DNA of 64,000 nt from Haematococcus lacustris (taxonomy: Eukaryota > Chlorophyta > Chlorophyceae > Chlamydomonadales > Haematococcaceae), in assembly GCA_030144725.1 (NCBI GenBank), contig JASKMD010000011.1, forward strand, positions 7,150,812-7,214,811, in the 5' to 3' direction. The translations under genes were made by a program, and so were the position numbers. Positions 4,930 through 63,400 of the stretch are shown one piece after another. The notes under the pieces are model-generated. The model saw only the letters and a list, made by a program, of their open reading frames with translations, was not told the origin of the DNA and did no database searches. Every line of letters begins with the position of its first letter. The first letter of the stretch is position 1.

Positions 4930-5690
4930 ACTCCCCTGTATCGGCAAGGCCATAGCTGAGCAGCGTGAGTTCAATCCAGCTACACACATTGGGGTGGGCA
5001 TTGACCCTGGCGTCACCCAGGCAGTCAGTGCAGCCTCAGGTGGGACCAGGAGTCAGGTTCTGGAGTCAGGCGGTGGAAGGGCCAGGTGCAAAGGGCCAGG
5101 TGCGGCAGGCCAGTGGCTTGAACAACTCCCGCCGCAACACTGAGCGGTGGCTAGCTCCAATCAAACCCAGCTCAGCCGGCATCTCCCTGGAGGCCGACCT
5201 GAAGCACATCACCTGGTCACCTGGGATGCGGTGTGGGAGGTGTACTTGGACCCCGAGTAAACACGGCTGAGGTTGTACGGAGCCCAGGACCGGGCGCTGG
5301 AGCAGTTCTTCAAGAAGGTGAGGATCTGTGGAAGGGAGGGTAAGGAACCGAGAGGTGGTTGGGCATGAAATGGAAGAGGAGTTGACTGTGCCATGGTTAA
5401 CCCGGTACCACCATGTCAGCCACCATGTGTTTCTCGTGTGCATGGCTGCAGGTGGAGGAGAGGTGACGGACTTGTCTATACAGCGCCATGGCGTGCCGAG
5501 CAGCTGGTGGTGTTCTTTGGAGCAGCTAGCATTGGCACTGGGGGAGGCTGGGGTGCTAATGCCGTGCTGCGGGCCTGCTGCAAGGTGGTGGGCAAGGTCA
5601 GGGGCACAGACCAGCAGCGTGGCAGAGAGGTGCAAGTGGACCAGGCAGCGGCATTGGAGCATAAAATTTTAGGTTGGCCTGTCCCTGAGC
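4930..5690 (+). pseudogene. Fanzor relic A1 (RuvC-I and middle region)
   Basis: 4960-5130 matches the RuvC-I segment of the long Fanzor copy at 34.7 kb (shared string GVGIDPGVTQAVSAASG with the first catalytic Asp). It is followed by a match to the exon end around AQDRAL.QFF.K at 5280-5316 and, past the intron, FFGAASIGT.GGWGA at 5510-5555. Frames change between blocks and the sequence around the RuvC-II glutamate is replaced by unrelated sequence after about 5640. It is a dead fragment and abuts the right edge of the Harbinger element. Confidence 0.75.
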
Positions 5691-6929
5691 CTGACCCTGC
5701 ATCCCTCACCATACCTCGGCCCTGGCCCTAGCCTGACCATCACGGCTTTGCCCAAATGCCCTCCTGCACATGCATAAAGGTTTGTCAAGCTGTAATGCAA
5801 GGCCGCCCAGCTCGGCCCGGCTGGGCTGGAGCGGGTCTGAGGTGCATCTGTGTGTCAGGCTGGTGTATGGGTACGCCCCTAACGCTGACAGCCCAGAGCT
5901 GCTGGCCTCCATTCTGGGCAGAAGCACGTGAACGAGCTGAATCAGCCAAGCACTGCCGCCTGCTTGGCATGAAGAATGATGCCTCCTTGCATGACACCCT
6001 GCGCCTGCCCTACCCATGCGCCATGCGGTGCATATGTGCCGGTGGCTGGAGCAGTGGCAGCAGCCCCTGACCCCACCTGTGCCAGGGCAGTCAAAGCGTG
6101 GCGAGTGTCACCGCAGCTGGCATTGGCTCCCAGGGAGGCTAGGTTGCTGGCGCGGTGCTGCGAGCCTCCTGCAAGGTGGTGAGTACGCTAAGGCGCACAG
6201 CTAGACCCAGCAGCTTGTATACCCTGACATCAGCAACCCCACCGGTTTCTGAGGGCAGTGGCGCACTCATCGCCCACGGCCCCCAAGGTCTTGTCGTCCC
6301 CAGGGTGGCGCTCTATCCCCTCAAGCAAGGTGTGCAGCAGCTGGTGAGCGGTGAACTAATGCACCAGTCGCTTCAGCTCAGCACTGAATGGCCAGCAGCC
6401 CTGCAAGGGGCAGCTGTACCGCAGCAAGCTTAGTAGGCCTGACCAGGACAGGTGGACCTCTGCCTGCTGCGTCCAGCCTGGAACCAACTGCGTGACCAGC
6501 CAGTGCGGGGCATGTAGTGGTGCCCGATAGTGGCACCACGCAAGCCCCCACAGGCCCCACGCAGCAGCCAGCAGCCTCAGAGCCCGGACCCAGCACTCCC
6601 CCGCCAGCCAAGCGCAGCAAGTGCACCAAGGCTGAGCAGGCGGCTGAGCCCACCCAGCCCACCAAGGGCACAGGCAAGGCCCAGGGCAAGGCTGCTAAAG
6701 CCGAGCCATCACCACAGCCAGGCAGGTGGCTGGACAGGGACTGCACTGCAGCTCTGAACATGCAGTGCATTGGGGAGAGCAGGCGGCGACCACTGGAGCT
6801 GTGCTGGTGGCAAGACCAGGCAGCTCTGCCAGCCAAGGGCAAAAGGAGTACCCTGGCCTGGGCTACAAGCGGGTGCAAGACCAGCCACCAAGGGTCCAGC
6901 AGCAGCAGCAGCCTGCTGAGGCACAGTAA
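5640..6929 (+). pseudogene. Fanzor deletion derivative A2
   Basis: This copy begins in sequence equivalent to the fourth intron of the long Fanzor at 33.7-33.9 kb. It continues through the exon containing GMKNDASLHDTL (equivalent to GMKKEGSLQDTL), jumps past RuvC-I, rejoins at the CCKVV segment (about 6165), and ends with the RuvC-III motif (DRDCTAALNM, 6733-6765) and the C-terminal GLGYK. The internal jump is the same as in the minus-strand copy at 25.2-26.3 kb, so both descend from one deleted master. Several stops and frameshifts are present. The conserved family tail follows the TAA at 6927. Confidence 0.75.
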
Positions 6930-7125
6930 TGTGTGCCCCCGACTTGAGTTGTCATCAGCTTACATTAGTGCATGTTTGCCATGCCAACTGTAGACTATAG
7001 CCCTCAAGGGTCGGGCAATGGTGTAGGTGGTAGGCACTCATGTACCATGAGGTCCCTACTGGTACCTGTAATGGTCCCTAGTGGTCCGAGTCAAATAGAG
7101 GCCCTAGTGAGGGACGAGGGGGCTG
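6930..7125 (+). ncRNA. Candidate omega-RNA tail of Fanzor copy A2
   Basis: Sequence from the stop codon to the element's right end (GTGAGGGACGAGGGGGCTG) is alignable with the tails after the Fanzor stop codons at 27196 and 36046. Shared blocks include CATCAGCTTACA, GTGCATGTTT and GTAGGTGGTAGGC. Known Fanzor/TnpB guide RNAs come from this 3' part of the element; the RNA itself is inferred. Confidence 0.35.
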
Positions 7126-20541: not shown

Positions 20542-22404
20542 CCAGGCACACCCCTTGGCAATGCTATCACTGCTAAGGTGCTGTTGCTGCCAAGCTGCCG
20601 TCAATTGCTGTAGGGCTGGCTGGCTGACTGCCAGGAGGTCCAGGCTCAGTGCATAGAGCCTCGCAACACAGAGCTGGGCCCTATAGGGCCAAAGAGGGTG
20701 CCACCACCCGGGGCTAGCCTGGACAGCTCACCAAGCAACACAGACCTAGGCTGTAGGCACTACTGAGGGTGCCGTATCCCAGTCCCTGCCTGGACCACTC
20801 ACCAAAACAGGAAGCGCAAGTAGTTCAATGCGATGACTTTGTGGTCCCTGCAAGTCAACCAACGTCATCATTGCGTGGCATTTGTAAGGCATGGTATCGC
20901 TGCAGACTCAGCTCCATATACACAAACACCACGCCACTCCTAGTCACCCTGGCAGCTACATCCTGTGTCAAGGCCTAGGGTCCGCCACACTCTGCAAGTT
21001 GACGTCACACTTAGGGAAGCTAGGGTGAGGGTGATGCTCCCGCTGACGATGCTCAGTGCGATGTTCTGTGTGGTCTTCTTACTGCTGTTGCTGCTGCTAG
21101 CTGGGCAAGCCTGTGCACTGGTGGCTTGCTGCCAAGCAGGGCTGACCATACCTGACTAGGCCTCCCTCGGCGTCCTGAAACATCAGCATGAACTTGAGCA
21201 CCATGTCAATGAGGAAAATGACGGTGGTGATGTAATCTGTGACCGCCCAAAAATCAGTGTAGGGACTGCGGGCGAGGGGCAAGACAAGCAAGGCATGTCA
21301 CACACATCATCACCCTCATGATGATGATGATAATGATGATGATCCTCATGTGGCACCAGCCTAGCAGCACCGCTGCCCGTCCAGAGTGTTTGAGGATCAC
21401 TGTCCTTGTGATCTGTTATCTGTTCAGTTGAGCCAAGAGTGTGGGCGCAAAGACAAGTCTCTGTATGCTGTAAAACAGCATTGCCTTGTATCCATCAGTG
21501 GTTGTTTCCATAACAAACCAGCTCCTAGGGGCAAAAGCCAGAGCTGAGGGGTTAGTCCAGGGCTGCAGAGCTGCCAGAGCTGGGTGGCCAGGCCAGAGCT
21601 GCAGGGACCTGTGTGGTAGCTCGACTGTGAGGGCAAGGGAAGGTTGCCCGAAACTGAGTGGTCAGTCCAGACCTGCAGAGCTGACCCTGGCGAAGGGGGA
21701 AGGTCTGACCACCGCTGCCAGACTTGACCTGGGCTGCTCAGATCCCCACCCCTACCCCTCACGAGGCATGCTGCCCTAGTCAAAGCTGCAGAGCAGGGCA
21801 GCTGTGCTGTCTGCCAGCTGGCGAGGCAGCACACAGCAGCAGACAGTCCTCGCCATGTGCCATGTGCACTGGGTTTACTCCACACAGCCCAATAACACTT
21901 CTGATCCGGCTCAAATGGAGGCCCTAGTGAGGGACAAGGGGGCTGCTCAGATCAAGGATGGGTGCTGATGTGCTGGGTGCATGGCTCAGGCTATGCATTG
22001 TGGCATGCAAGCCTACGGCAGCCCCTGGCCACACTGAGCTCAATCAGGTGAATTGTGGCCCCTGCTCAGACACACACAGCTGACAGCCTGTGCATCACAC
22101 TGCAGGTGGGATGGCATCAACGTGGCTGCTATTGTCGCTGCTGAGACACTTACTACAATCCGGCTTCTTCCACAAATGACAGCTTGAAGGGGTCTAGGGC
22201 AGCTGTGACTAGGGCCATGGCCATTGTGAAGTACCACCATCTGCAGGAAAGGAGCAGCATTACAACCTGTTGACTGGAAATTGGCTATGAGCAATGGACA
22301 TGCATAGCAGAGCTCAGACATATCATGCACACCCAGCTCTGGTCTCTTCAACTCATTACCTAAGGTATCGAGGGTCGTGTGGTGATATTAAGGGCAGCTT
22401 CCAT
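8166..22404 (-). CDS. Shaker/AKT-type voltage-gated channel with CNBD and ankyrin repeats
   Basis: A plasma-membrane cation channel, probably six-transmembrane and tetrameric. Exons (minus strand, 5' to 3'): 22360-22404, 22154-22240, 21152-21265, 20803-20847, 20328-20445, 19889-19990, 19568-19686, 19221-19274, 18987-19072, 18717-18841, 18324-18371, 18079-18231, 16886-17029, 16216-16300, 16014-16114, 15580-15667, 15053-15158, 14581-14839, 14173-14335, 13689-13809, 12978-13128, 12557-12637, 11963-12016, 11766-11846, 11488-11506, 8166-11038; 1806 codons with every phase compatible. Seen in order: S1 (WWYFTMAMALV), S2 (TTVIFLIDMVLKF), S3-S4 (VDLVTTLPLDGF), S5 (FITHWMACLFYYV), pore AGLGDGD, S6 (FLLGNIVFQAYIL), C-linker, CNBD cassette CFGEVPFFTG, then ankyrin repeats such as VEDRWGHTPLGDAVAAGH. 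The last exon is a Ser/Pro/Gly-rich tail of about 957 codons. The start codon lies upstream, beyond the hAT insertion. One intron (17030-18078) would use a GC donor. The domain order is that of plant AKT1, but no KHA domain is seen. Confidence 0.9.
17100..17300. repeat. GGTGATGGT-type simple repeat in a channel-gene intron
   Basis: Imperfect (GGTGAT)n / (TGATGG)n sequence lies in the intron 17030-18078. It is non-coding in context. Confidence 0.7.
20455..20540. repeat. (CA)43 microsatellite
   Basis: Forty-three uninterrupted CA units lie in the intron between the S2-end exon and the S3-S4 exon of the channel gene, 10 bp beyond the acceptor of exon 20328-20445. The repetitive HTHT/VCVC frames are artefacts. 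Confidence 0.98.
21743..21852 (+). repeat. Dispersed repeat, copy 1 (copy 2 at 41143-41254)
   Basis: About 110 bp, starting near CCCCACCCCTACCCCTCACG, is almost identical to 41143-41254. Here it lies in a channel-gene intron directly left of a Fanzor tail; there it overlaps the C-terminal frame of the Tim17-like gene. Confidence 0.85.
21854..22045 (+). mobile_element. Fanzor element right end, solo copy
   Basis: The sequence matches the right part of the long Fanzor element (36159-36332): GCACTGGGTTTACTCCACAC, then GATCCGGCTCAAATGG, then GGGACAAGGGGGCTG. It also continues into the same flank up to GAGCTCAATCA, with a 15-bp insertion. No coding part remains. It sits in the intron between channel exons 21152-21265 and 22154-22240. 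Confidence 0.85.
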
Positions 22405-25222: not shown

Positions 25223-26285
25223 CAGTCCCCTCGTCCCTCTCGCTTGTAGCCCAGGCCAGGATACCCCTTGCCCTTGGCTGGCAGAGCTGCCTGGTCTTGC
25301 CACCAGCATAGCTCAAGTGGTCGCCGCCTGCTCTCCCCAATGCGCTGCATGTTCAGAGCTGCATTGCAGTCCCTGTCCAGCCACCTGCCTGGCTGTGGTG
25401 ATGGCTCGGCTTTAGCAGCCTTGCCCTGGGCCTTGCCTTTGCCCTTGGTGGGCTGGGTAGGCTCAGCTGCCTGCTCAGCCTTGGTGCGCTTGCTGCGCTT
25501 GGCTGGCGGGGGAGTGCTGGGCCCGGGCTCTGAGGCTGCTGGCTGTGTGGCTGCCCAGCTACTGCAGCCTGGCGTTAGTTCACCGCTCACCAGCTGCTGC
25601 ACACCTTGCTTGAGGGGATAGAGCGCCACCCTGGGGACGACAAGACCCTGGGGGCCGTGGGCGATGAGTGCGTCACTGCCCTCAGAAACCGGTGGGGTTG
25701 CTGATGTCAGGGTATACAAGCTGCTGGGTCTAGCTGTGCGCCTTAGCGTACTCACCACCTTGCAGGAGGCTCGCAGCACCGCGCCAGCAACCTAGCCTCC
25801 CTGGGAGCCAATGCCAGCTGCGGTGACACGCTTTGACTGCCCTGGCACAGGTGGGGTCAGGGGCTGCTGCCACTGCTCCAGCCACCGGCACATATGGACC
25901 GCATGGTGCATGGGTAGGGCAGGTGCAGAGTGTCATGCATGGAGGCATTATTATTCATGCGAAGCAGGCGGCAGTGCTTGGCTAATTCGGCTCGTTCACG
26001 TGCTTCTGCCCAGAATGGAAGCCAGCAACTCCGGGTTGTCAGCGTTAGGGGCGTACCCACACACCAGCCTGACACACAGATGCGCCAGCCGGGCCGAGCT
26101 GGGCGGCCTTGCATTACAGCTTGACAAACCTTTATGCATGTGCATGAGGGCATTTGGGCAAAGCCGTGATGGTCAGGCTTGGGCCAGGGCCGAGGTATGG
26201 TCAGGGATGCAGGGTCAGGCTCAGGGTCAGGCCAACCTAAAATTTGATGCTCCAATGCCGCTGCCTGGTGCAGCCATTGCCTGGC
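25223..26285 (-). pseudogene. Fanzor deletion derivative B
   Basis: It has the same mosaic as copy A2: fourth-intron sequence, the CRLLRMNNNASMHDTL exon, a jump over RuvC-I, the CKVV segment, then the C-terminal part with the RuvC-III motif DRDCNAALNM and GYPGLGYKR. It then jumps from the GLGYKR codons directly to the element's right end (GAGGGACGAGGGGACTG on the minus strand). RuvC-I and RuvC-II are absent, so it cannot encode an active nuclease. The last 340 bp are bracketed by 26-nt direct repeats (25195-25220 and 25559-25584, two mismatches). Confidence 0.75.
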
Positions 26286-26294
26286 CCTAGGCAT

Positions 26295-26640
26295 CCGATT
26301 CTTCTCCAGCTGGGTTAGGGTTAGGGGTAGGGTACGCTCATTGAATTATAGTTGGCTGAGATTCCTATAAACACATAAAATTATATGCAAGAGGGACCTA
26401 TGAAAATTGGCGCGAAAACCTATAATTTAGGCTTAAAAAATGTAGACTTATATGTTGGCGGTCGCTCCCTAGTTAGGGGTCTTCTCCAGCCAATGGTAAG
26501 CTCCAAGAGGTCTTGCACACTCTCTCTGTTGAGTCGTAAACTAAGAAATGATTTGGCGCAGGGTAGGCGCAGGCAGGGGCTAGGCAGGTGCGAAGGGGAG
26601 GGAAGTGGGCTTGTGAGGGGCAGGGACTGTCCGGGGTGCG
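26295..26640. other. AT-rich island between two Fanzor fragments
   Basis: 26340-26470 is strikingly A+T-rich compared with its surroundings, and 26330 onward has a GGTTAGGG-like start. No gene, TIR or known repeat is recognised. Confidence 0.4.
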
Positions 26641-27195
26641 TTCCCTGTCCAGGTGGAGCTGAACACACTCAGTGCCACAAGACCTGCAGGCTGGAAGCCC
26701 CCAGCAGGGCAGGTGCACCACCGCCTAGTGCGCCCAGCCTGGAGCCAGGAGCGTGGCCAGCCAGTGCGGGGCCTGGTGTGGTGCCCGGTAGTGGCCCCCC
26801 GCAGGCCCCCACAGGCCCCACGCAGCGGCCAGGCAGCCACACAGCCAGCAGCCTCAGAGCCAGGGCCCAGCACACCCCAGCCAGCCAAGCGCAGCAAGCG
26901 CACCAAGGCTGAGCCAGAGGCAGCTGAGCCCACCAAAGGCAAGGCCCAGGGCAAGCCTGCCAAAGCCAAGCCAGCACCTCAGCCAGGCAGGTGGCTGGAC
27001 AGGGACTGCAATGCAGCATTGAACATGCAGCGCATTGGGGAGAGCAGGTGGCGGCCGCTGGAGCTGTGCTACTGGCCTGAGCAGGGAGCTCTGCCAGCCA
27101 AGGGCAAGGAGTACCCTGGCCTGGGCTACAAGCGGCTGCGAGACAAGCCCCCCAAGGCCCAGGAGCAGCAGCAGCAGCCTGCTGAGGCACAGTAA
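26641..27195 (+). pseudogene. Fanzor C-terminal fragment (copy C), frame intact
   Basis: A 5'-truncated copy begins at GTGGAGCTGAACACACTCAG, which matches 35487 of the long copy, and stays in frame to the TAA at 27193. It includes RGLVWCP, a Lys-rich linker (PAKRSKRTKAE), RuvC-III (DRDCNAALNM) and the tail EYPGLGYKRLRDK...PAEAQ. It preserves the ancestral linker frame that is broken by a 14-bp duplication in the long copy. RuvC-I and II are missing, so it is a fragment. Confidence 0.85.
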
Positions 27196-27450
27196 TGTGT
27201 GCCCCCTTTGTTGAGCTGTCATCAGCTTACAATTAGTGCATGTTTTGTCATGCCAACTCTACATCATAGCCCTCGGGTCAGGCAATATTGTAGGTGGTAG
27301 GCGGCTCATGTGCCATGTGCACTGGGTTTACTCCACACAGCCCAATAACACTGTTTGAGCCGGATCTAGTTAGTGGCTGCTAGTGGCTGATAGTAGTAGG
27401 TACTTCTGATCCGGCTCAAATGGAGGCCCTAGTGAGGGACAAGGGGGCTG
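27196..27450 (+). ncRNA. Candidate omega-RNA tail of Fanzor copy C
   Basis: It is nearly identical to 36046-36248 except for an insertion (27352-27407). That insertion creates a 13-bp perfect inverted repeat, TTTGAGCCGGATC and GATCCGGCTCAAA. It ends at the family right end AAGGGGGCTG. Conservation of this non-coding tail across copies supports a functional RNA; expression is not shown. Confidence 0.4.
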
Positions 27451-30700: not shown

Positions 30701-33700
30701 AAGATACCCGACAGCACCTACTACCGTCAGCAGTGAAAGCATCGAGATACCAACATATAACCTTCTTCCGCCTCCGCTAGAGGTCGCAGCAGCACGTTTT
30801 GCAGCTACGAGGCCTGACGGTGAGACGCGTTGACGGACCTTAGCGTTGACCTCCTTTTGACTTGCATCATTTGACTATTAACACCACGTCCTTTGCGCAG
30901 AGAACCCCGGAGAACAAAGTGGCTGGGCAGCCTAACACCGCCGTTGCAGCTGTCGCAGGAGCTCGCTTGGCTGATGCAAATTGCGTGGTCGCGCAGCCCA
31001 AACCGGCCATTGCATATGAGGCTCTGGTAACCTGTCTGGCAAAGCAGGCAAGTCCAAGGTTGGCTTGCATGTGTCGTATCGTCGTCTCTTGCAATTGTGA
31101 TATCGTGGGCCATAACCATTGTGTTGCACCGCCCCGCAGCGCCCGCTGCAAACGAGAAAACGGAGCAGATCCTTAGCAGGTTTTTTTTAGCCCCTGACAT
31201 TGTGGACAGGGCAATCCGCAAGGCAGCACCAGCAACCATGATCAAAAACAAGAGTTAGCTGAACACCAGCTATAGCATGCTGGGATCTGTCTTGTTCGTC
31301 ATTCGGCATGCCTTGTCATTGCTATCCCACCTTCGCCACCCTCATACTTTAGGTGGTGAACAAGCAAAACCCTGCTGCTGTTGCTGCCTTGTTGCTGCTG
31401 TTGTTGCCCTCCTGCTCCTGTTGTTGCCCTCCCCTGCTACTGCTGCTGCATTGCTGCTGTTGTTGTTGCCCTCCTGCTGCTGGTGCTGCCCTGTTGCTGC
31501 TGCTGCTGCTTCCCTGCTGCTGCTGCTGCCTGGCTGTTGCTGCTTCCGCCCTGCTGCTGTTGCTGCCCGGCTGCTGCTGCTGCTGCCCGGCTGTTGCTTC
31601 CACTGCCCTGCGGCTGCTGCCCGGCTGCTACTGCTGCTGCCCGGCTGCTGCCGCCCTGCTGCTGCTGCTGCCCTGCTGTTGCTGCTGCTGCCCGGCTGCT
31701 GCTGCTGCCGCCCTGCTGCTGCTGCTGCCCTGCTGTTGCTGCTGCTGCCCTGCTGTTGCTGCTGCTGCCCGGCTGCTGTTGCTGCTGCTGCCCTACTGCT
31801 GCTGCTGCTGCCCGGCTGCTGCTGCCGGGCTGCTGGTGCTGCCCTGCTGCTGCTGCTGCTGCCCGGCTGCTGCTGCCGGGCTGCTGGTGCTGCCCTGCTG
31901 CTGCCGGGCTGCTGCTGCTGCCGGGCTGCTGCTGCTGCCCTGCTGCTGCTGCTGCCCGGCTGCTGCCACTGCCCGGTGGCTGCTGCTGCCGTTGCTGGCC
32001 TGGCGGCGGTACCCCTGGCAGTTGGCCCGGCGGCGATGCCCCTGGCAGTTGACCAGGCGGCGGTTCCCCTGGCAGCTGGCTTGGCGGCGATGCCTCTGGC
32101 AGTTGGATGCTTGCAGCCAATGCTGACTTCCACGCCCACGAAGCAGATGGCAAGGCTCTGAAGATGAAGCTTCTGGCAACTGTTGCCGTTATCTAGGGTT
32201 ACTATAATTTCATGATACAATGGTTCGCGGGCTGTAGAGCGCCGACAAGTAAAACTTTTACCGGCAGACATTGCTTGTAATTGCTGTAATTGTTCAACAT
32301 CACCGTATAAATCAACAATTACGACAATATAACAATAAATTATTCTCCCGTAATGTATTGGGATACATGGGTCATGTAGACACATGTCATGTAGACATGG
32401 GCCATGTAGACACAGTACAACACTTGAGTTGGGGCCGTGGCCCCCAGCGCTGTTCTTCGTGTACTTTCTCTACCTCCTGGCCTGCTCTGCCCTTGGCCTG
32501 TCTGGCCTCTGCCCTGCACCCTGGGCCTGCTCTGCCCATACCCGGGACCCGCCAGGCTAGGCCAGGGCTGAACTGGTAGTTGTATTTGTCTGGCTTGGCT
32601 TGGCCCTGTTCCCTTTCCCTTGCACTTGTGTATTTTCACACATCCGTGTATTTTTTCACGGAAAACCCAAATTGCTAGAAAATGCCCCCGCCCGTCGCAC
32701 TGCGCATCGCGTGATGGCTAAGAAGAAGCGGAAGGGTAGCGACAAGAAACATAAAGGTTCGTGTCCCCAGCCGTGACGTGAGCCCTAGACGTGAGTTACG
32801 CGCTGTGAGATAACCCGTCGCTCCTGTTGGTTCCATTGCAGCGTCTCGTTCCGCCCAAGGCAAGCAACGACAGGATCGTCGAGATGGCTGGACCACGCGT
32901 CGACGTCAGGTGACGGCCACGCCTTATGTGTCCCCGCACTGTTTGTGTCGACCTCGCCTCTTGTCTTGGCCTGTCAAAATTGCAACCTCGCTTGGCTGCA
33001 GGTCATTAAGGTCCCCGAGGGCGCAGTGCTGCGCGGCTGTAAGAAGACCAGGCGCAAGCTGAGGGAGCACCTCCGGCTACGGGCTGAGATCCACTCTCAG
33101 CTCCGCGTGATCGCCTCCCTGTTTGTGTTGCGCATTTTTCTCACCTGCCTGGTGGGCTACCCTACCCCAGGCTCCCCCAGCGCCCCTCAGCCTCCAGCTG
33201 TGCAGCCTCCCCAACCCCCTGATGCTCCCCCCCTACCCCCACTCCCCCCACGGGCCCCTGCCAGCATGAAGTGTGACAATGACTCTGACTCCGAGTCAGA
33301 CTGTGACTCTGATCCGGAGCTACAGTCTGACTCGGAGTCAGAGTCTGAGCCAGAGCCAGTCACGCAACCCCCCAAAGGCGCTGCAGCGCCCGCCTGGCAG
33401 CCCTTGCACCCGCAGCACCCACTGGCCCTCCCTTGCCCCTTGATTGCGAGGACCCCCTGATGCTCAGGCAGCTGAAAGACTTCTGCAAGTTCTTTGCCAA
33501 CCCAAACTTCAAGACATGCTACAAACAGCGGCAGCGGCGCTTTGTGCGCAACCGCCACCCCATGCTCATGCCAGCCTTAGAGGACCCCAGCAACCTGGAG
33601 CTGGGCAGCATGAAACTGACGGCTTTTCACAACACCATCGACGCACACTCCATGCAGCTGGCGGTGGCCATGCAGCAGCACTACTCCAACCCAGGCAAGT

Positions 33701-36700
33701 GATGGTGGTGACTAGACCCTAGACTTGGACCTGGACCTGACCTGACCTTATACCTGACCTATACCTAGACCTGACCTGGACCTGACCTGACCTTATACCT
33801 GACCTGACCTGACCTGACCCTGACCCTGACCCTGACCTGACCCTGACCCTGACCCTGACCCTGACCCTGACCCTGACCCTGACCCTGACCCTGACCCTGA
33901 CCCTGACCCTGACCCTGACCTGACCTGCAGAGCGCATTGTCAAGCTGTACGCCAAGGCAGCCAGGGCCAAGCTAGGCTGGAGCGGGGAGGAGGCGCAGCT
34001 GTTCATCAGGATGCGAGTGGGTATGGCATCAACGCCCACAGCTCGGAGCTGAAGGCCGCCACCCTGGACAAGGGCCATGTGGCGGACCTGATGGAGGAGG
34101 CCAACACGCACCGCCGCCTACTGGGCATGAAGAAGGAAGGCTCCCTGCAGGACACCCTGCCCCTGCCCTGCCGCATGCGCCATGCAGTGCATGTGTGCCG
34201 GTGGCTAGAGCGGTGGCAGCAGCCCCACACCCCCCCTGTGCCAGGGCAGCCAAAGCGCGGCAAGAGGCGTGGGGTTGGTCCCCGGACCCTGACCTGCCCC
34301 ACCCCCTTCACCCTCACCCCCATGGCCAGGGTGGGGGTGCACTTCATCAAGGTGGACAGCAGGGTGCTCCATGGGGTGTGCAAGCAGCTGGGTCTGACCA
34401 AGGAACCCCGGGCAGCGTTCACCTCAGAGCCAGCACTGAGCCATCACTGGGCCAGGTGGTTCAACACAAACAAGCTTCGCAACAAGGAGTTTCATTTCGA
34501 GAGGTTGGTGGACACAGATGGTGTCAGCGTGTGCGTGCACTACACGCGCCCCCTTCCCCCTCCTCCAGCCCCACCTCCAGCTGCCAGCAGCAGCAGCACC
34601 AGCAGCCGCCCAAGTGCAGCAGCAGCAGCGGCACATGCAGTGGGGCTCCCCCACATAGGCAGGGGCATAGCTGAGATGCGTGACTTTGTGTTTGACACAG
34701 ACACACAGATTGGGGTGGGCATCGACCCCGGCGTCACCCAGGCAGTCAGCGCAGCCTCTGGGGTGTGGGATCCAGCAACAGGCCAGCTCAAGGCAGACCA
34801 GCTGCGCCGGTGGAAGCTGACCAAGGGCGAGGTGAAGCATGCCAGCGGCCTGAACAATGCCCGCCGTGACACTGAGCGGTGGCTAGCACCGATCAAGCCC
34901 CACCTCCAGCACCTGGCAGCAGCAAGCTCAGCCGGCACCTCCCTGGTGGCCAACCTGAAGCACATCACCGTCACCCTGGCCACCTGGGATGCGGTGTGGG
35001 AGGTGTACCTGGACCCCAAGTGGGCACGGCAGCGGCTGAGGCTGTACGGAGCCCAGGACCGGGCGCTGAAGCAGTTCTTCAACAAGGTGAGGGTGGGTGG
35101 GTGGGTAGGTGGGAGGGAGGGAGGGTAAGGGACGGAGAGGTGGTGGGTTGGGCATGACATGAAAGAGTACTTGACTGTGCCATGCCTAACCTGGTGCCAC
35201 CATGTCAGCCACCCTGTGTGTGTCTTGTGTGCATGGCTGCAGTTGGAGAAGGAGATGGCTGAGTTGTCCATGAAGCGCCATGGGTGTGCCAAGCAGCTGA
35301 TGGTCTTCTTTGGAGCAGCTAGCATTGGCACCAGGGGAGGGTGGGGTGCTGATGCGGTGTTGCGGGCCTGCCGCAAGGTGGTGTGCAGGCCCAGGGGCAA
35401 AGACCAGGATGGGGGCAGGGTGGTGCTTGTGGATGAGCACCGCACCAGCCGGGTCAGCTCAGCAGTGAACGGCAAGCAGCCCTGTGAGGTGGAGCTGAAC
35501 ACACTCAGTGCCACAAGACCTGCAGGCTGGAAGCCCCCAGCAGGGCAGGTGCACCACCGCCTAGTGCGCCCAGCCTGGAGCCAGCAGCGTGACCAGCCAG
35601 TGCGGGGCCTGGTGTGGTGCCCGGTAGTGGCCCCCCGCAGGCCCCCACAGGCCCCACGCAGCGGCCAGGCAGCCACACAGCCAGCAGCCTCAGAGCCAGG
35701 GCCCAGCACACCCCAGCCAGCCAAGCGCAGCAAGCCAAGCGCAGCAAGCGCACCAAGGCTGAGCCAGAGGCAGCTGAGCCCATTAAGGGCAAAGGCAAAG
35801 GCAAGGCTGCAAAAGCCAAGCCAGCACCTCACCCCGGCAGGTGGCTAGACAGGGACTGCAATGCAGCATTGAACATGCAGCGCATTGGGGAGAGCAGGTG
35901 GCGGCCGCTGGAGCTGTGCTACTGGCCTGAGCAGGGAGCTCTGCCAGCCAAGGGCAAGGAGTACCCTGGCCTGGGCTACAAGCGGCTGCGAGACAAGCCC
36001 CCCAAGGCCCAGGAGCAGCAGCAGCAGCCTGCTGAGGCACAGTAATGTGTGCCCCCTTTGTTGAGGTGTCATCAGCTTACAATTAGTGCATGTTTTGTCA
36101 TGCCAACTCTACATCATAGCCCTCGGGTCAGGCAATATTGTAGGTGGTAGGCGGCTCATGTGCCATGTGCACTGGGTTTACTCCACACAGCCCAATAACA
36201 CTTCTGATCCGGCTCAAATGGAGGCCCTAGTGAGGGACAAGGGGGCTGCTCAGATCAAGGATGGGTGCATGGCTCAGGCTATGCATTGCGGCATGCAAGC
36301 CTACGGCAGCCCCTGGCCACACTGAGCTCAATCACTACCCTAGCCCCAGCAGATGCCCATGCTATTCATGTGGTTAAGCTAATTCCATTGATCAAGGGGT
36401 CTACGGCTGGGTGGGCAGGTGACCATCACCCACAGGCACATGGCACAGGGGGTTTCGGCTGGCTCATCACAGTAGTGGCAATACAGCCTGTTGTGGAGCC
36501 CTACAGCAGAGCAGGTACAGCAGAGTTGGATGCAATGTGCCAGTCACCATGCACCAAGCTCTGTGCTTGCATGGGGGAGAGAGCATGCTGTGCTCATTGT
36601 GGGATGTGACTGCTCCCTTGCTGGCCACCCCCCAGGTCATCAAAACCACTTCCAAGTGGGTCACAGGAAACCGCGACCCGTGGTTGTTCAGTTGTTTAAG

Positions 36701-39452: not shown

Positions 39453-40068
39453 ACATCGTAAAGCCACATCTCAGGTTGGCTAATGGTGCTGTGGACTGAC
39501 AGCTCTAGCTGCTTACCTGCGCTCACAGCGCAGTGGCGAGCACAGCGGGAAGCCTGAACCTCCTCATGGCTCGGACTAAGGCACAGACATCACTGCATAT
39601 GATGGGTTCTGTGGCCTGCAGGCGCTGCTGCGGCTGGCCATTGCCAAGGCGACCAGCTGCACCCCGGGCCTCAAGGCTGATTACGTGGCTGAACTGGGCT
39701 GATATTGTCATTGCACATTTGTATTTTCACACATCCGTGTATATTTCACGAAAAACCCAAATTGCTAGAAAATGCCCCCGCCCGTCGCACTGCGCATCGC
39801 GTGATGGCTAAGAAGAAGCGGAAGGGTAGCGACACATCGTAAGGCCACATCTCAGGTTGGCTAATAGTGGTGTGGACTGACAGCTCTAGCTGCTTACCTG
39901 CGCACACAGCGCAGTGGCAAGCTCAGCGTGAAGCCTTAACCTTCTCATGGCTCGGACTAAGGCACAGACATCACTGCATATGATGGGTTCTGTGGGCAGC
40001 AGGCGCTGCTGCAGCTGGCCATTGCCAAGGCAACCAGTTGCACCCCGGGCCTCAAGGCTGATTACGTG
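39453..40068 (+). repeat. 235-bp direct repeats flanking a solo Fanzor left end
   Basis: 39453-39687 and 39834-40068 are 235-bp copies with no length difference and about 15 substitutions. The 146-bp spacer consists of a 33-bp segment also seen at 11146-11183 (CTGAACTGGGCTGATATTG) and the Fanzor left terminus. It resembles a duplication around an insertion. Confidence 0.85.
39721..39833 (+). mobile_element. Fanzor element left end, solo copy with start codon
   Basis: 113 bp match 32630-32743: the terminal CACACATCCGTGTAT hairpin, the 5' UTR and the ATG with codons for MAKKKRKGSD. It then stops abruptly at GGTAGCGAC where the second 235-bp repeat begins. Confidence 0.88.
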
Positions 40069-41536: not shown

Positions 41537-41788
41537 GAGTGGTGGGGGCTGCTGCCACTAGCACAGTGTCACTAGCACAGATACTGGACATACACTGGCA
41601 TAGACATTGGGGCATGGTCTCATTGACAGCCTTGAACACCCCAGGGCCCAGCCTGGACCACCTCCAGTAGGCTAGGTCACTGAGCAACCCAACGGGGCAG
41701 CAGGTTGACAAGCATGGGGGAGAACCTTCTTCAGGGTGGTAGCAAAGCACTGCCTACCATAGCCTGTCACCACTGACATGGGCAGATG
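41537..41788 (+). repeat. 252-bp inverted repeat, left arm
   Basis: The exact reverse complement, as far as I can read, lies at 45253-45504 with the same length. Outer edge GAGTGGTGGGGGCTGC, inner edge GACATGGGCAGATG. No target duplication is evident outside the arms. Confidence 0.9.
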
Positions 41789-43494: not shown

Positions 43495-44800
43495 TTAGTC
43501 ATTGACTTCAAACAGGCCTTTGACCACATACCTCGACAACAATTGTGGGAACACTTGCGGGTTGGGGTCGAGCTGCCACAGCCCTTGCTTGCCTGCCTGG
43601 AGGGTCTGTATAGGGATGATAGCTATGTGCCGATAGATGGCCCCCACCGCACCCCCCAAGTGACTCCGGACCAAGGTGTCAAGCAAGGCTGCCCCATCAG
43701 CCCACTCTTGTTTGCTCTCTATGTTCACGACATTAGTAAGGAGTTCCTGGGTCCTGTTGATGCTGTGAGAGTGCAAGGCACACCTGTCACCCACTTCATG
43801 TATGCTGATGACCTGACCCTGGTGAGCACCTCGTCCCACGGGCTGCAGCGGCTGCAGACAGGAAACACCTTACAGTCAATGTGGGCAAGTCAAAGGTGAT
43901 GGTCTTCAATGGCAACTCACAAACTGCAGCCTGTGGTGAGAGAGTTCAAGTACTTAGGCATGCACTTCAACCCCAGCGCCACCCCTGCTTTTGCTGCCGC
44001 TCATATGAGGGCTGGCATGTTCTTCGCCATGCGCCAGGCGTGCAAGCGTGCCAGAGAGTATGGGGTCCTGCATGATCCATATGCCCTGTGTCACCTCATT
44101 AGAGCGTTTGTGCTCCCCTTGGGCCTGTATGGCAGCCAGGTATGGGGCACTGCATTCCTTGGGCATGGTGTATAACTCTCCAACCCTGTGCAAACACGCA
44201 TGCTCAGCTTTCTCAGGTTTGCTGCCAGGGTACGTAGCTCAGTGTCAGGCCTGATGGTGCTGCATTAGTTGGGGCAGCTGCCCCTCCAGCTTTACTGGCT
44301 AAGGGCTGCATGCAAGTTCTGGAACACTGCCAAACTATCCCACAGTGACGTGCTAATGAGGGTCATCAAGGCAGATGTGGAGTTAGGCAGGAGTTGCCAG
44401 ACCAGCTGGAGTGCTCAGTTCCAGCTGGCCGTTAGAGAGCTGATGGGGGGGTGAGTTTACCTTGAGCCCCAAGGCTATGGAAGTCAAGTGGCTCGAGAGG
44501 TAGGGGAGGCGTTGGGTTGGGTTTGAGGGAGACCCTAGACTGCCTTAGACGGTGCATCGGGAGAGATGTTCGTATGCTGCATGGTTCAAGCATGGGGACG
44601 GCATTGGCATCACCTGCTTAACAGACAGCTCTCTACAGAAGTTCGCACGAGCCTGACTAGGTTCAGGTTAGGCAACAGCGGTCTGGGGGTGGAGAAGGCT
44701 CGGTTTGAGGGGGTAACTTTCATTGATCGCACATGCACCAGATGCACAGAGGCTGACGGCTTAAGCGGTGTAAGCCACATCATCATCACCAGTTAGAGCA
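43495..44800 (+). pseudogene. Non-LTR (LINE, L1-like) retrotransposon ORF2, reverse transcriptase part
   Basis: 43497-43860 reads VIDFKQAFDHIPRQQLWEHL, then PDQGVKQGCPISPLLFALY and HFMYADDLTLVST, with the catalytic YADD. After a frameshift near 43870 it continues VNVGKSKVMVFN and REFKYLGMHFNPSATP, then further blocks to about 44795 ending in a CTRC-type cysteine pair. The order (palm, thumb, C-terminal helical part) is typical of L1-clade elements in algae. Upstream palm motifs, endonuclease and ORF1 are missing, and stops and shifts break the frame at least three times. Confidence 0.82.
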
Positions 44801-45252: not shown

Positions 45253-45504
45253 CATCTGCCCATGTCAGTGGTGACAGGCTATGGTAGGCAGTGCTTTGCT
45301 ACCACCCTGAAGAAGGTTCTCCCCCATGCTTGTCAACCTGCTGCCCCGTTGGGTTGCTCAGTGACCTAGCCTACTGGAGGTGGTCCAGGCTGGGCCCTGG
45401 GGTGTTCAAGGCTGTCAATGAGACCATGCCCCAATGTCTATGCCAGTGTATGTCCAGTATCTGTGCTAGTGACACTGTGCTAGTGGCAGCAGCCCCCACC
45501 ACTC
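45253..45504 (-). repeat. 252-bp inverted repeat, right arm
   Basis: Reverse complement of 41537-41788. It is preceded by a short GATCT tandem (about 45233-45252). The arms enclose 3464 bp that include the LINE relic. Confidence 0.9.
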
Positions 45505-46462
45505 AGTAACAGCCCAGGCACGATCACCACTCTTAAACCCCATCCTGGGCCACAAAAGCACAGTACCCCACCTTTGTGTGGCCCTAGGCGTCTGTTTGTT
45601 AGCCAATGAGCAGAGCAGCTTCCTTGCCCAACTTTACCCTCCATGGCCCTCATACTGCTGGGTTGCGGATCTGGTAGCATGGCTCCCCTCATCACACCCA
45701 CCACGATTGCATGGCTGAATTCAAGCCACATGGTGTGACATGTGTGACGCCGGGTGACTAGGCGTGGCGTTCATTTGCCTCCTGCTTCATCAAAGCCCGT
45801 ATGTCCAGCTGCTTGCCCTGCAGTAGGCAGCAGTTCACGCTAGGCGAGGGCTGGAGGGCTGGGGTGGATTGGAAAGGGTCATGTAGACATGGGTCATGTA
45901 GACACGGTACAACACTTGAGTTGGGGCCGTGGCCCCCAGCGCTGTTCTTTGTGTACTTTCTCTACCTCCTGGCCTGCTCTGCTCCTGGCCTGCCTTGCCC
46001 CTGCCCTGCACCCTGGGCCTGCTCTGCCCATACCCGGGACCCACCAGGCTAGGCCAGGGCTGAAGCAAGCTGAGGGACACGACTGCAATTGTAAACAGAA
46101 GTCAATGGCAGCAGACCCTACCTCAACCTCCTGCCCTGGGCCCTGCCTCATAAACACCTGCCAGATAAACACCCATGCCTCTGCCAGATGAAAACCTGAG
46201 TTGAGAGTTGAGAGGAACAGTAAGTGGCTTGGGTATACTTCATGTCAAGCTGGAGGTATACACCTTGTTGCACTGCATTGCACTGAAGCTGGAGGCATAC
46301 ACCTTGAGTGTTCCCCCAATGTGTGACTCTGCCCCTGACGCGCCCAGGCCCTCCATCGGGCACGTTCGCCCAGCCCTCCTGCCTAGGTAGCAGAGCAGGC
46401 ATAGCAGCACCCTGCAACCCTGGCCCTGCTGACTGCCTGGCGGTGACCCAGGCATCTCTCAC
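45505..46462. other. Repeat-rich interval beyond the last visible exon of the ISHxW/TPR gene
   Basis: Contains the dispersed repeat 45858-46066. Terminal exons of the minus-strand gene may lie here but are not identified. Confidence 0.45.
45858..46066 (+). repeat. Dispersed repeat, copy 2, uninterrupted
   Basis: Same family as 32366-32580 plus 30155-30199. This copy lacks the 2-kb insertion and so shows the empty site. Confidence 0.85.
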
Positions 46463-49400: not shown

Positions 49401-52400
49401 GGGCTGGTCTTCCTGTGACCCCTGGGCAGGGCTGGGGCTGCTGCCTCTCGTCAGCATGCTGGCGGTGGGCGGGTGCGCCAGCTGTCAAGGCACACGGTGT
49501 CCAAGGATGTACCACGGCATCACGCCTAGATCACGAGCCTGGTGCTGCCAGCCTGGGCGATCCAGTCTGGCCCAGCTTGCTGTGGTTGATGCCAGCCGTC
49601 CAGCCTGGGCCCACCAGCTGTCCTTTGTTTCCCCTTATTTTCTTACTTAGCCCCAGCTCAACCTCCCAGCCCTCACCTTGCCAGGCTCTGTCTCAGTCTC
49701 TGCCAGGGGGGCCCCTGCTCCTGGGGCAGCACCTGGGGTGGCTGAGGCTAGCACCCGCTTGGCCACCCGCTCCGCCTCCGTATGCTGCCAGGGCAGCAGG
49801 GCAGCGGGCAGGGCAACAGTGGGCCGGGCAGCAGCAGACAGAGCAGCAACAGGAAGGGCAGCAGGCAGGGTAATGGGCCATAAACACAAATACAACGGGA
49901 AGGGCAGCAAACAGGACAATGAGGGATTGAAAGTAGTTGGGGCTGAGCATGCAGATTTTTACACATCCGTGTATTTTTCACGGAAAACCCAAATTGCTAG
50001 AAAATGCCCCCGATCCGGCTCAAATGGAGGCCCTAGTGAGGGACAAGGGGGCTGAGCATGCAGATGATGAAAGGTGGCAATGGGGGAAAGATGGAGAGCC
50101 AGATATGAGGATGAGCAGTGAGGGTTGGAGAGCGGATGTAGGTAAGGGTTAGGGTGAGGGGTGTTGGCTTGTGCTGGCTGCTGCTTGGCTGGTGCCAGTT
50201 GACCAAGGTTCTGGTAGTGGCAGCTGAGAGGAGGGTGACGAGGGTCAGCTGCCGTCCAGGCCTTACTTGATTGAGACAGTGCAAGGCATGAGCCAGGACC
50301 TCGGTGCTGCACACCAGCTGGGCAGCCTGCAAGCTTTCAGACCTGCTGCCCGCCTCAGCCCCTGGAGCGTTTCCAGCAGCCTGCTGATGGCGCAGAGCCT
50401 GCGGGGCGGTGGTGTGTGGGAAGGTGTGGAAGGGGCTTCCCAGGGGGGGGTGGAGAGAGGGTGAGGTGTAGGAGGTTGGAGGATGGCTGGGGAGGTGGGG
50501 GAGGCAGGCAGGGAGGAGGGAAGGGTATGGAAGTGTAAATGTTGGGAGGCATGCTGTAGTATACAAACCATACCTTGTCCCGTCACACTTATGCTGCACA
50601 CAAATGCCTTGTACATTCCCACACAAAGGAGACATGGCACCTCAATGGAGACGTGTCACAACCTGCTCCCCTGGGGACTATTCAACCGCCACTCTTCCCT
50701 CACACCTCACAGACCAGGCGATGCGCCTCTTCAGGGTACCCCCCTAGGGCTATGAGGCTGGCCAGACCTGTTGTGAGCGCCGCATGCTCCTGCAAGGGGG
50801 CGCACACCAGGGGCAGGGGCAGCGCCATCAACACCAGCTGCGGCTGCAGCCGCGAGCCAGAGGCACCGGCAGCCGTCTGAGTAGCCCACCCTGCTGCAGG
50901 CTGCTTGTGCACAAGGCGCCCCATGCAGGCAAAGGCCAGGGCAAGGCTGCCAGACCCAATCCAGCACCACAGCGAGGCAGGTGGGTGGAACGGCAATGCA
51001 GCGGTGAACATGCAGAGCATTGGGGAGAGCAGGTGGTGCCTGCTGGAGCTGTGCTGATGGCTTGGGCTGCCTGATCTGCTAGCCAGGGGCAAGGAGTACC
51101 CAGGCCTCAGCTACAGCCTGTTGTTGCAGGTACGCAAGAGTACTCAAGCTGCAAGCTTACATCAGTGCATGTTTGGCATGCCAACTGCAGGCTATACCCA
51201 TGTCACAGAGGTCAGGCAATGGTGTAGGTGGAAGGCACTTATGCCACATACCTCCATACAGACAAAACACCACCCCTAGTGAGGGGGCCTAATCATACAT
51301 TTGCATTGGTTAGAGTTGGGGTTAGCCCCGCTGGCCTGATGATGGAGACGCTATTTGGTTTTCATCAATTCGATTATATTCCTTTTAATTGCTCACTTGG
51401 CAGTTGAGCCAACCCTGTTCCCTGCTACACCCAGTCTGCAGCCGGTCTGCAGCCAGGTCCAGCAGCTGCCCCACCACCACCAGTGACCCCAATCCACTGC
51501 TATCAGCTGCTAGGGCTTTGTGCCTGGGGCTGGAGCCAGGGTTGCAGCTTGCCTGTGGTGGCAGCAGCGCGCGCTGCTCCTGGTGCTCCTGCAGCAGCGC
51601 CCTCACCGCCTTCTCTGCCTCCCACATGTGCCCCCCCGCAGCCAGCATGAGGGCACGCTGGGTGGCAGCGGAGGTGTACCTGGACAGTCAGTCAGTGAGT
51701 CGGTCAGTCAGTCAGTCGGTTGGTCGGTCAGTCGGTTGGTCGGTCAGTCAGTCAGCCAGCCAGTCAGTCTGGCTTTGGATGCTATGTGCCAGCTGTCCAG
51801 CTTGCATAACGACCTTGGAGGGGGTGGAGCGTGGGGGCAGCGGCGGTCATGCTGAACACCACCCCTCAGTGCTGTTGCCATCAGCAAGCAGATGACGACA
51901 ATGGTGTGGGAGAGTGGGAAGAAGAGAGACGAGGGATATGCACCGTGCGGCAGTGGTGCCATGAGAAGCGGTGCCGTGCCATGCAAGTTGACCTGTACAT
52001 GTCAGGTGTCAGGTGCACAAGGGCATCTCCTGAGCGGCTACTGCGCTGTGTCCCAACCAGGCGGTCCACCACCGACCTGCGAGGGTAAGCCTGACGGGAG
52101 CGCTCTGCCACCTCCAGCTGTGCTGCGCTGGCAGCCAGCAGGCCAGCCAGCAGCACCGTCCCGACCTGCACACCCCACAGCCAGCAGCTGGCCAGGCAAC
52201 ATCCCTAACTACTTCCGCCTGGTGCAGACATGCCACCCTGCCATGCCCACCACCTCTAAGCCCTCCTTCCTCTCCCTAGTCCCACCCCTACAGCCCCAGC
52301 CAGCCAGCACACCAGTGTTTTCTTTTCAAACAGCCAAGCTGATGCTGGTCACAAAGGGTCCAGGACCACCACATGGCTGGTTTGATTGTAAATATTATGC

Positions 52401-60450: not shown

Positions 60451-63400
60451 ATGGACAGCAGCCTTACAGCAGCGATTGCCCAGGTTGCCTCTACCCGTAG
60501 CGGGGGCTGGCTCACTCGCCGGCTGACCAAGGAGCCTTTCACCATGGAGGTGGTGTGGGCCATGCAGGTTGGGGCCACAGCCCGGCACTTGGTGCAGAGC
60601 CAGCTCCTGCATGCCGCGGCAGCCGACTTCGTGGCAGGGTTTGCCGAAGCCTGTGCCACAGAGGTCCGGCTTTATGCCTTGCAGCATGGCTCAGCTTTGG
60701 TTTCGTTAGAGTCCCACCTGCAGCCTGACCAGCCCCACCATGCCCTACACATCCTCCATGATCATGCCTCAGCACAGGGCAGGCTTCTCCACTCCTCCCT
60801 CCTGGCTCAGTCTGTCTGGGAGGTGCAGTACCTGGGGCGGGTCGTCAGTGTGCCTATGACACCCCTGCCCAGCCTCCCCCCTCCAGGTGCAGTGAAGGTG
60901 GTGCTGAGCCTGCACTACCAGCAGGCAGCGCGGCGAGGCATCACGGCAGCGGTGCTTGCTGCCGCTGGGTACTCTGCCAGCGAGTACAGCGGGGAGGGGC
61001 TGCCTGCTGTCTTACACCCCACCTCCACTTTCGTGTTCAACGAGCGCCTGGGTGACCACCCCCGGTACAGCTACCTGGCAGGCACACAGTGCGGGAATGG
61101 TGGGGTGGTGGAGGCCTGGGTGTTCCCACCAGCGGGTGACCCCTCCTTAGCCTTTCTGCCTAGGAGTGTGCAGAACCCCATGGGGCGGTGGGGGCGTATC
61201 CAGGTCTTTAGGGAGGACGGGGCCCCTCTCCAGCAAGGCGCGGAGGGACCTGCAGGTCCCCAACCTCCTCCTCCACCTCCTCCTGATCCCCCCTCAGCCC
61301 CCCCCCCTTCACCTCTACCACCCTGCTCACCTTCCCCACCTGCCCAGCCCACCCTTCAGCATGCTCCAGCCGATGGGCCTATGGCGGACGCCTCAGGAGC
61401 CACGAGCGCTTCTTTGCATGCCGGAGAGGCCGCGGCTCCTACCCTGCTCACCCAGGCGAGTGTTGAGGGGTTACCTGGCTGGACCTGCTTTGTCCCTTCC
61501 ACCACCTCCCAGCCCCCTCCTGGCACCGGCGCTGCTGCTGGCCTCCTAGCACGAAAGGAAACAGAGGGCTTGGGGGCATCTGCTCCACAGCTGCCAGGGC
61601 GGCGGCAGCAACAGCAGGTACACCCTCTTCCCCCTGACACTACAGTTGTTGCTACCCCCACCCAGCACGCCCCAGTAGGGGGTAGCACTGCTGTGGTGCT
61701 CGAGGGAATGCAGCCAAGGGGTAGCCTGCTGTTGCCGTTTGGGTCCGTTGAGAGCGTGGCGGCTCCCCGGCCTGCCACACCTGCTGCCCCCCCCACCCAG
61801 CTCACCCCAGCAGTGGGTGGCCCTGCAGTGAGTGTTGCAGGCACCCAGCCTGAGTGTGCCCAGCTGCTGCAGCCTCTGCCCGACAAGGGCGTCATGGGTC
61901 CCGCGCCAGCAACACCTGCTGCCCTTCCCACCCAGCTCACCCCAGCAGTGGGTGGCCCTGCAGTGTGTGTTGCAGGCACCCAGCCTGAGTGTGCCCAGCT
62001 GCTGCAGCCTCTGCCCGACAAGGGCGTCATGGGTCCCGCGCCAGCAACACCTGCTGCCCTTCCCACCCAGCTCACCCCAGCAGGGGGTGGCCCTGCAGTG
62101 TGTGTTGCAGGCACCCAGCCTGAGCGTGCCCAGCTGCTGCAGCCTCTGCCCGACAAGGGCGTCATGGGCCCCGCGCCAGCCACACCTGCTGCCCCCACCA
62201 CCCAGCTCACGCCAGCAGTGGGTGGCCCTGCAGTGTGTGTTGCAGGCATCCAGCCCGAGCGTGTCCAGCTGCTGCAGCCTCTGCCCGACAAGGGAGTCTT
62301 GGGCCCCGCGCCAGCCACACCTGCTGCCCTTCCCACCCAGCTCACCCCAGCAGTGGGTGGCCCTGCAGTGTGTTTTGCAGGCACCCAGCCTGAGCGTGCC
62401 CAGCTGCTGCAGCCTCTGCCCGGCAAGGGCGTCATGGGCCCCGCGCCAGCCACACCTGCTGCCCCTCCCACCCAGCTCACCCCAGTAGTGGGTGGCCCTG
62501 CAGTGTGTGTTGCAGGCATCCAGCCTGAGCGTGCCCAGCTGCTGCAGCCTCTGCCCGACAAGGGCGTCATGGGCCCCGCGCCAGCCACACCTGCTGCCCC
62601 TCCCACCCAGCTCACCCCAGTAGTGGGTGGCCCTGCAGTGTGTGTTGCAGGCATCCAGCCTGAGCGTGCCCAGCTGCTGCAGCCTCTGCCCGACAAGGGC
62701 GTCATGGGCCCCGCGCCAGCCACACCTGCTGCCCCTCCCACCCAGCTCACCCCAGTAGTGGGTGGCCCTGCAGTGTGTGTTGCAGGCATCCAGCCTGAGC
62801 GTGCCCAGCTGCTGCAGCCTCTGCCCGACAAGGGCGTCATGGGCCCCGCGCCAGCCACACCTGCTGCCCCTCCCACCCAGCTCACCCCAGTAGTGGGTGG
62901 CCCTGCAGTGTGTGTTGCAGGCATCCAGCCTGAGCGTGCCCAGCTGCTGCAGCCTCTGCCCGACAAGGGCGTCATGGGCCCCGCGCCAGCCACACCTGCT
63001 GCCCCTCCCACCCAGCTCACCCCAGTAGTGGGTGGCCCTGCAGTGTGTGTTGCAGGCATCCAGCCTGAGCGTGCCCAGCTGCTGCAGCCTCTGCCCGACA
63101 AGGGCGTCATGGGCCCCGCGCCAGCCACACCTGCTGCCCCTCCCACCCAGCTCACCCCAGTAGTGGGTGGCCCTGCAGTGTGTGTTGCAGGCATCCAGCC
63201 TGAGCGTGCCCAGCTGCTGCAGCCTCTGCCCGACAAGGGCGTCATGGGCCCCGCGCCAGCCACACCTGCTGCCCCTCCCACCCAGCTCACCCCAGTAGTG
63301 GGTGGCCCTGCAGTGTGTGTTGCAGGCATCCAGCCTGAGCGTGCCCAGCTGCTGCAGCCTCTGCCCGACAAGGGCGTCATGGGCCCCGCGCCAGCCACAC

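Follow-up and report, generated by a model that had tools for sequence, protein, structure and literature searches.

Which element lies in the middle of a 64-kb stretch of Haematococcus lacustris contig 11 (positions 7150812-7214811, within a 307.9-Mb assembly; below, the window), and how do its copies spread? An earlier note, made from the letters of this stretch, had proposed a Fanzor element of an alga. Fanzors are relatives of Cas12 in eukaryotes. The window Fanzor copy, here called copy D, is dead, one decayed copy among many. It is likely to represent an abundant H. lacustris passenger element of Fanzor1 type, copied one-endedly from its anchored 3' end, apparently by a rolling-circle enzyme acting in trans, with the Fanzor protein aiding the spread.

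The Fanzor gene and its family

The following parts of copy D can be distinguished, all on the plus strand.

32595-32713: conserved 5' stretch whose start is approximate; a hairpin of 6 bp, TCCGTG..CACGGA, lies at 32643-32662
32714-32912: exons 1-2 (32714-32755 and 32841-32912), beginning MAKKKRK, an exact match to QJQ45_005389
33005-33699: N-terminal exons (33005-33337 and 33469-33699 in the public gene model), from the gene model and tblastn
33932-35086: core exon 5, with the TDG motif at 34514-34522, RuvC-I GIDPG at 34718-34732 and a frame change near 34016-34019
35243-36045: core exon 6, with RuvC-II/Ealt DEHRTS at 35432-35449, RuvC-III DRDCNAALNM at 35848 and the stop codon at 36043-36045; its TNB region lacks the first cysteine pair, and the frame changes inside 35721-35748
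36046-36248: 3' untranslated part and element 3' end, with the terminal GGCTG at 36244-36248, the right arm of the 3' hairpin (36206-36218) and a small hairpin CCCTAGTGAGGG

Seven pieces of the window, lying between 32714 and 36042, together match all residues of the public H. lacustris protein QJQ45_005389 (868 aa) letter for letter, which fixes both the gene and the host, an alga as anticipated. The three RuvC motifs and the MAKKKRK start occupy the sites and the order in which the earlier note had read them, with TDGVSVCVHYTRP in the exon of GIDPG. The note had also placed copy D two small indels away from an open frame. The frame does change at both places it gave, the second being bypassed in the public gene model by an extra intron (35611|35641), and another frame change or a retained intron is located somewhere in 33337-33469. 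Of the proposed bounds, 32630 to 36248, the 3' one is exact, whereas similarity at the 5' side starts at various points from about 32580 to 32703: L006, L017 and L019 share the 5' stretch from about 32595, L025 from 32580, and other copies join at 32622 or later. The description of copy D as the master type of its family is not supported: many other copies exist (98 scored of 25,319 first-look candidates in the genome), and this one is decayed.

A 733-residue X-joined read-through of copy D matched 567 proteins at E <= 1e-3, scoring being limited to the 8,000 candidates that shared most words; the motif pattern is thus far above chance. The best 120 of these proteins are all from H. lacustris, and 81 of them contain all three motifs by a simple pattern. 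Two further searches with neighbouring subfamilies yielded 85 proteins, all listed, and 129, of which the best 120 were listed; the listed ones again all belong to H. lacustris. We label the window's own family A; family B comprises P0130, P0131 and P0127, and family C the N-terminus of P0119 together with P0213. The motifs of family B are 'WLGCDPGKTN', 'VHEFRTSRVSSAR' and 'FYDRDVSAALNI', and the profiles of A and B match with probability 99.9 (E 1.5e-33, 447 columns).

The fingerprint described for Fanzors consists of DPG in RuvC1 and the alternative glutamate, Ealt, in RuvC2 (Yoon 2023, PMC10711439; here and below, papers are cited for individual passages). Both are present. The DPG stands in the GIDPG of exon 5, and G-x-DPG matches 207 among the 308 proteins collected; the Ealt glutamate stands six residues before the zinc-finger position in exact register (E-HRTSRV-S-SA-V), as judged from the places where cysteines would stand. 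The TDG motif, which the same paper places in the WED domain of Fanzor1 and which here presumably has the same place, also occurs in family B, as HTDGV. Over about 440 residues the predicted fold of family B matches the overall fold of three solved Fanzor1 proteins, SpuFz1, GtFz1 and PpFz1 (PDB 8gkh, 9cez, 9cer, 9cf1), and the Haematococcus sequences share with these the RuvC-I aspartate, the Ealt glutamate and the RuvC-III DRD. Assignment to Fanzor1, as the earlier note had proposed, is thus supported by the two fingerprints, the profile link to family B and the predicted fold of the latter. A RuvC protein outside Fanzor1, such as a eukaryotic TnpB or a Cas12-like protein, would agree with the absence of any match in sequence-level searches to the solved Fanzors and with the Pfam TNB result, above threshold in 2 of 13 individually scanned proteins; given the fingerprints and the predicted fold of family B, we regard this as extremely improbable. 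RNA-guided DNA cutting may be presumed by analogy with the solved proteins, from the predicted fold and the retained active-site residues.

Many public H. lacustris gene models fuse Fanzor fragments with hAT dimerisation domains, actin, ribosomal proteins or reverse transcriptase (e.g. P0011, P0029, P0032, P0042, P0095). These are probably prediction artefacts.

Loss of the first zinc-finger cysteine pair

We examined 25 further genome copies, mostly picked for open frames. Both core exons are open in 17 of them, as expected from the forecast that intact relatives exist. Two pairs, L016/L024 and L017/L019, have identical 3' flanks within each pair and may be alleles or duplications. In all 25 copies the first CxxC pair is replaced, the sequence being DEHRT[ST]RVSSAV[NH]G. 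Among the 308 proteins of the three subfamilies, a pattern covering this place has 293 matches, with the pair appearing as S-xx-V in 166, S-xx-R in 46, S-xx-L in 35 and S-xx-M in 23; a cysteine at either position occurs once (P0204), at a deletion. Of the second pair usually one cysteine is left (GLMWC or GLMC). We thus describe a new Fanzor1 variant with the first zinc-finger cysteine pair replaced throughout the copies examined. As the pair is absent from both A and B, its loss is older than the split of these families, or was repeated.

The motif D-X-[TS][TS]XX-[C4]-X-RD has been termed strictly conserved (Bao & Jurka 2013, PMC3627910), and the missing first pair of its C4 zinc finger sets the Haematococcus family apart from CRe-1, CRe-2 and CRe-3 of Chlamydomonas reinhardtii described there. 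The Haematococcus family has no C4 finger between [TS][TS]XX and RD, so we file it as a zinc-finger-less variant and not as a classical member. Yoon 2023 attributes a zinc finger only to 'many' Fanzors. SpuFz1 has a CCCC finger in common with TnpB (PMC10432273), whereas one cysteine usually remains here; unlike the solved Fanzor1 proteins, family A also has a long low-complexity insert between this cysteine and RuvC-III.

The loss might be mere decay, if only dead copies had been sampled and functional ones retained their cysteines: copy D is dead, and all searches started from it or from proteins found with it. However, none of the 25 copies, including the 17 with both core exons open, has a cysteine at either first-pair position, and the same holds for 292 of the 293 pattern matches. 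Moreover, the ratio of nonsynonymous to synonymous substitution rates (dN/dS) between copies is clearly below 1, with a median of 0.318 in exon 5 (range 0.172-1.061; 23 copies, 251 pairs) and 0.351 in exon 6 (range 0.136-0.805; 18 copies, 152 pairs). We therefore consider decay very improbable; the Fanzor protein was probably maintained during the spread of the family. A lineage that retains the active-site residues under coding constraint while lacking this cysteine pair would reveal what portion of the NUC domain is dispensable.

The 3' end and the target site

The element has a fixed 3' end, ...GGGGGCTG (in other renderings ...GGGGGCUG and ...GATCCGGCTCAAATGGAGGCCCTAGTGAGGGACAAGGGGGCTG), closing in GGCTG. 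Among 31 tails, some of which are one place fetched twice, 25 have the terminal pattern, five have the same end minus one G (GACAAGGGGCTG, by eye), and one, the diverged L013 on the plus strand, has no such end. A search for 3' ends (40 scored of 1,417 candidates) gave loci partly drawn by their 3' end. Over 62 distinct ends the information exceeds 1.2 bits per base and falls to at most 0.2 immediately past the last G, the last bases of this profile being partly fixed by the search pattern.

In 18 of the 62 ends, the first 9-13 flank bases (at least 9 were demanded) are repeated upstream, and in 15 of these 18 the upstream repeat is preceded by GGCTG. With anchors shifted by 40-100 bases, 242 control trials gave 21 repeats, one of them after GGCTG. 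The element's relatives thus tend to insert next to GGCTG, which is also the pentamer at the element's own end. Three ends are exceptions: L025, where the element ends in GGCCT and AGCCT stands ahead of the repeat; L056, with target GGCTA and element end GGCTG; and L033, with target GACTG and element end GGCTG, where the repeat is doubtful.

The 5' spacing can be measured in 14 of the 18 cases. The duplication adjoins the element in five: L013 (132 bases), L027 (188), L038 (1,431), L040 (773, with a gap of 13) and the window copy at 49955-50054. In six copies extending to the conserved 5' sequence, 44-209 additional bases stand ahead of it. The gap is 76 bases in L032 and 238 in L052, and L033 does not fit. 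For this abundant family of Fanzors the GGCTG rule yields a checkable prediction of the target and perhaps of the target-adjacent motif (TAM); with it, the question of how Fanzor1 elements move in green algae becomes directly testable.

Hairpins are found near both element ends, the 5' one being positioned relative to an approximate end only. The 3' hairpin is formed by 13 bases, TTTGAGCCGGATC, and their partner GATCCGGCTCAAA, the final base of which is 30 bases ahead of the element end. Pairing is found in 98.5% of cells over 24 sequences, selected for both arms being present or nearly so, compared to 26-60% when the partner is slid. Varying pairs are G-C in 18 sequences and U-A in 5, C-G in 15 and U-G in 9, A-U in 20 and G-U in 4. 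The G-U changes favour, without proving, a hairpin of RNA rather than DNA. Copy D has lost the left arm. No match to Rfam was obtained.

Mode of transposition

HUH strand transfer yields an element end identical to the target, and since both are GGCTG here, we prefer a rolling-circle enzyme in trans to target-primed reverse transcription. Such an enzyme (HUH, Helitron2-like) would copy the passenger from its 3' end, GGCTG being its cut site in element and target. The Fanzor would be loaded with a transcript running over the 3' end into flanking sequence and would cut matching DNA, so that copies persist or spread.

The closest known elements are CRe-1, CRe-2 and CRe-3, which have Helitron2 ends and 7-19-base duplications after TTTT (Bao & Jurka 2013). 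Helitron2 is characterised in that paper by hairpins at the 5' terminus and at the 3' side, by asymmetric terminal inverted repeats and by a RepHel protein. Like the Haematococcus element, they live in a green alga, carry a Fanzor1 gene with several introns, and are nearly all 3'-intact, with 5' truncations, internal deletions, variable duplications just past a fixed motif and, in some copies, short extra 5' sequence. Kept 3' ends, 5' truncation and duplication directly past a fixed target motif were all found here, in loci partly drawn by their 3' end. The target differs, TTTT in CRe as against GGCTG, which in Haematococcus also closes the element.

The same Fanzor1 element could instead have been moved by a long interspersed element (LINE) through target-primed reverse transcription, which would leave a fixed 3' end, 5' truncation and variable duplications. 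The duplications do vary in length (14-18 bases with GGCTG counted in), and they directly adjoin the 5'-truncated copies L013, L027 and L038. In addition, one reverse transcriptase (92% identical) is fused to Fanzors of two different families in gene models P0042 and P0169 and is also found near the Fanzor of L020; its family was tentatively assigned to the apurinic endonuclease (APE) type by eye. A fragment at 43501-44319 of the window is 81% identical to the reverse transcriptase part of P0042. The truncation, the duplications and one LINE family adjoining Fanzors keep this route in consideration. On the other hand, introns are retained in the copies. The element end repeats the bases ahead of the nick (GGCTG|) and not those that would prime, which is the arrangement expected of HUH enzymes. 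L056 has target GGCTA (and L033 GACTG, if its doubtful duplication is real) while the element end is GGCTG. No LINE 3' end with the element's sequence was seen in the one pair of LINE stretches compared, whose 3' end is unfixed. On balance we think the LINE route unlikely, though far from negligible.

Several results weigh against the rolling-circle account or its parts. No duplication of at least 9 bases at offset 0 is seen in 44 of the 62 ends, copy D included. Doubly changed hairpin pairs number 1, the shuffled expectation being 0.9. The 3' untranslated part is kept no better than an intron (107/121 compared with the copy ending at 7125, as against 115/132 for the intron compared with the copy at 4931-5640). 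The predicted model of family A itself is poor. Finally, for the two exon-6 pairs whose dS exceeds 0.25 the median dN/dS is 0.586, among copies mostly picked for open frames.

One could go further and suppose that GGCTG is both the cut site of the mobiliser and the TAM of the Fanzor. An RNA transcribed through ...GGGGGCUG and on into flanking DNA would in that case match the empty site; it would equally match the right junction of the element itself, where GGCTG precedes the same bases. By cutting this 3' junction of its own element, or the sister allele, a zinc-finger-free Fanzor would set off one-ended copying. A guide-directed step would thus be built into transposition, beyond protection of the donor site. 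We consider this improbable.

Fanzor1 passenger elements were known before; Fanzor elements have been described in Chlamydomonas and in Auxenochlorella, where one is the most abundant repeat (PMC12636532). In the open literature searched, subscription papers lying outside the search, no description of a Fanzor element in Haematococcus was found; the cited passages of the Auxenochlorella paper name Haematococcus just as a diploid. New are the protein variant, the GGCTG target rule and the kept 3' hairpin.

Other copies and repeats in the window

Self-BLAST and tblastn found eight stretches besides copy D, in agreement with the earlier count of at least eight traces in 64 kb.

4931-5640, plus strand: fragment of the RuvC-I to RuvC-II region with an intron
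5637-7125, plus strand: deletion derivative with an intact 3' end
21854-22046, plus strand: 3' end of an element plus about 86 bp also found 3' of copy D (36249-36334)
25225-26272, minus strand: deletion derivative with an internal junction (about 34264|35315 in copy D coordinates) in common with 5637-7125
26620-27450, plus strand: 5'-truncated copy retaining the RuvC-III exon and a 3' hairpin with both its arms
39711-39834, plus strand: 5' end fragment including the start codon region
49939-50065, plus strand: internally deleted copy of about 100 bp (49955-50054), 5' end joined to 3' end, flanked by an 18-base repeat
50926-51243, plus strand: diverged C-terminal fragment

The two deletion derivatives have one internal deletion in common and are 93-96% alike, so a deletion derivative has multiplied. 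The 18-base repeat GGGGCTGAGCATGCAGAT stands at 49939-49956 and 50048-50065, on either side of the internally deleted copy of about 100 bp. Both ends with little between them are retained by this copy (100 bases) and by L045 (248), L048 (257), L056 (289) and L047 (423). In the layout of their DNA all five resemble the ghost loci of Spizellomyces (Saito 2023, PMC10432273).

The approximately 86 bases common to 36249-36334 and 21946-22046 lie 3' of the element end, as though flanking sequence had travelled with the element or this part of the genome had been duplicated. A 187-base repeat (32386-32572, just upstream of copy D, and 45878-46064; 95% identical) ends in ...CCAGGGCTGAA at both places and may be another element that closes in GGCTG. 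The window also contains a 252-base inverted repeat (41537-41788 and 45253-45504, 100% identical), a tandem array of period 135 at 61765-63730 (14.6 copies, 97% matches) and a 332-base tandem duplication at 2627-3291 (99% matches).

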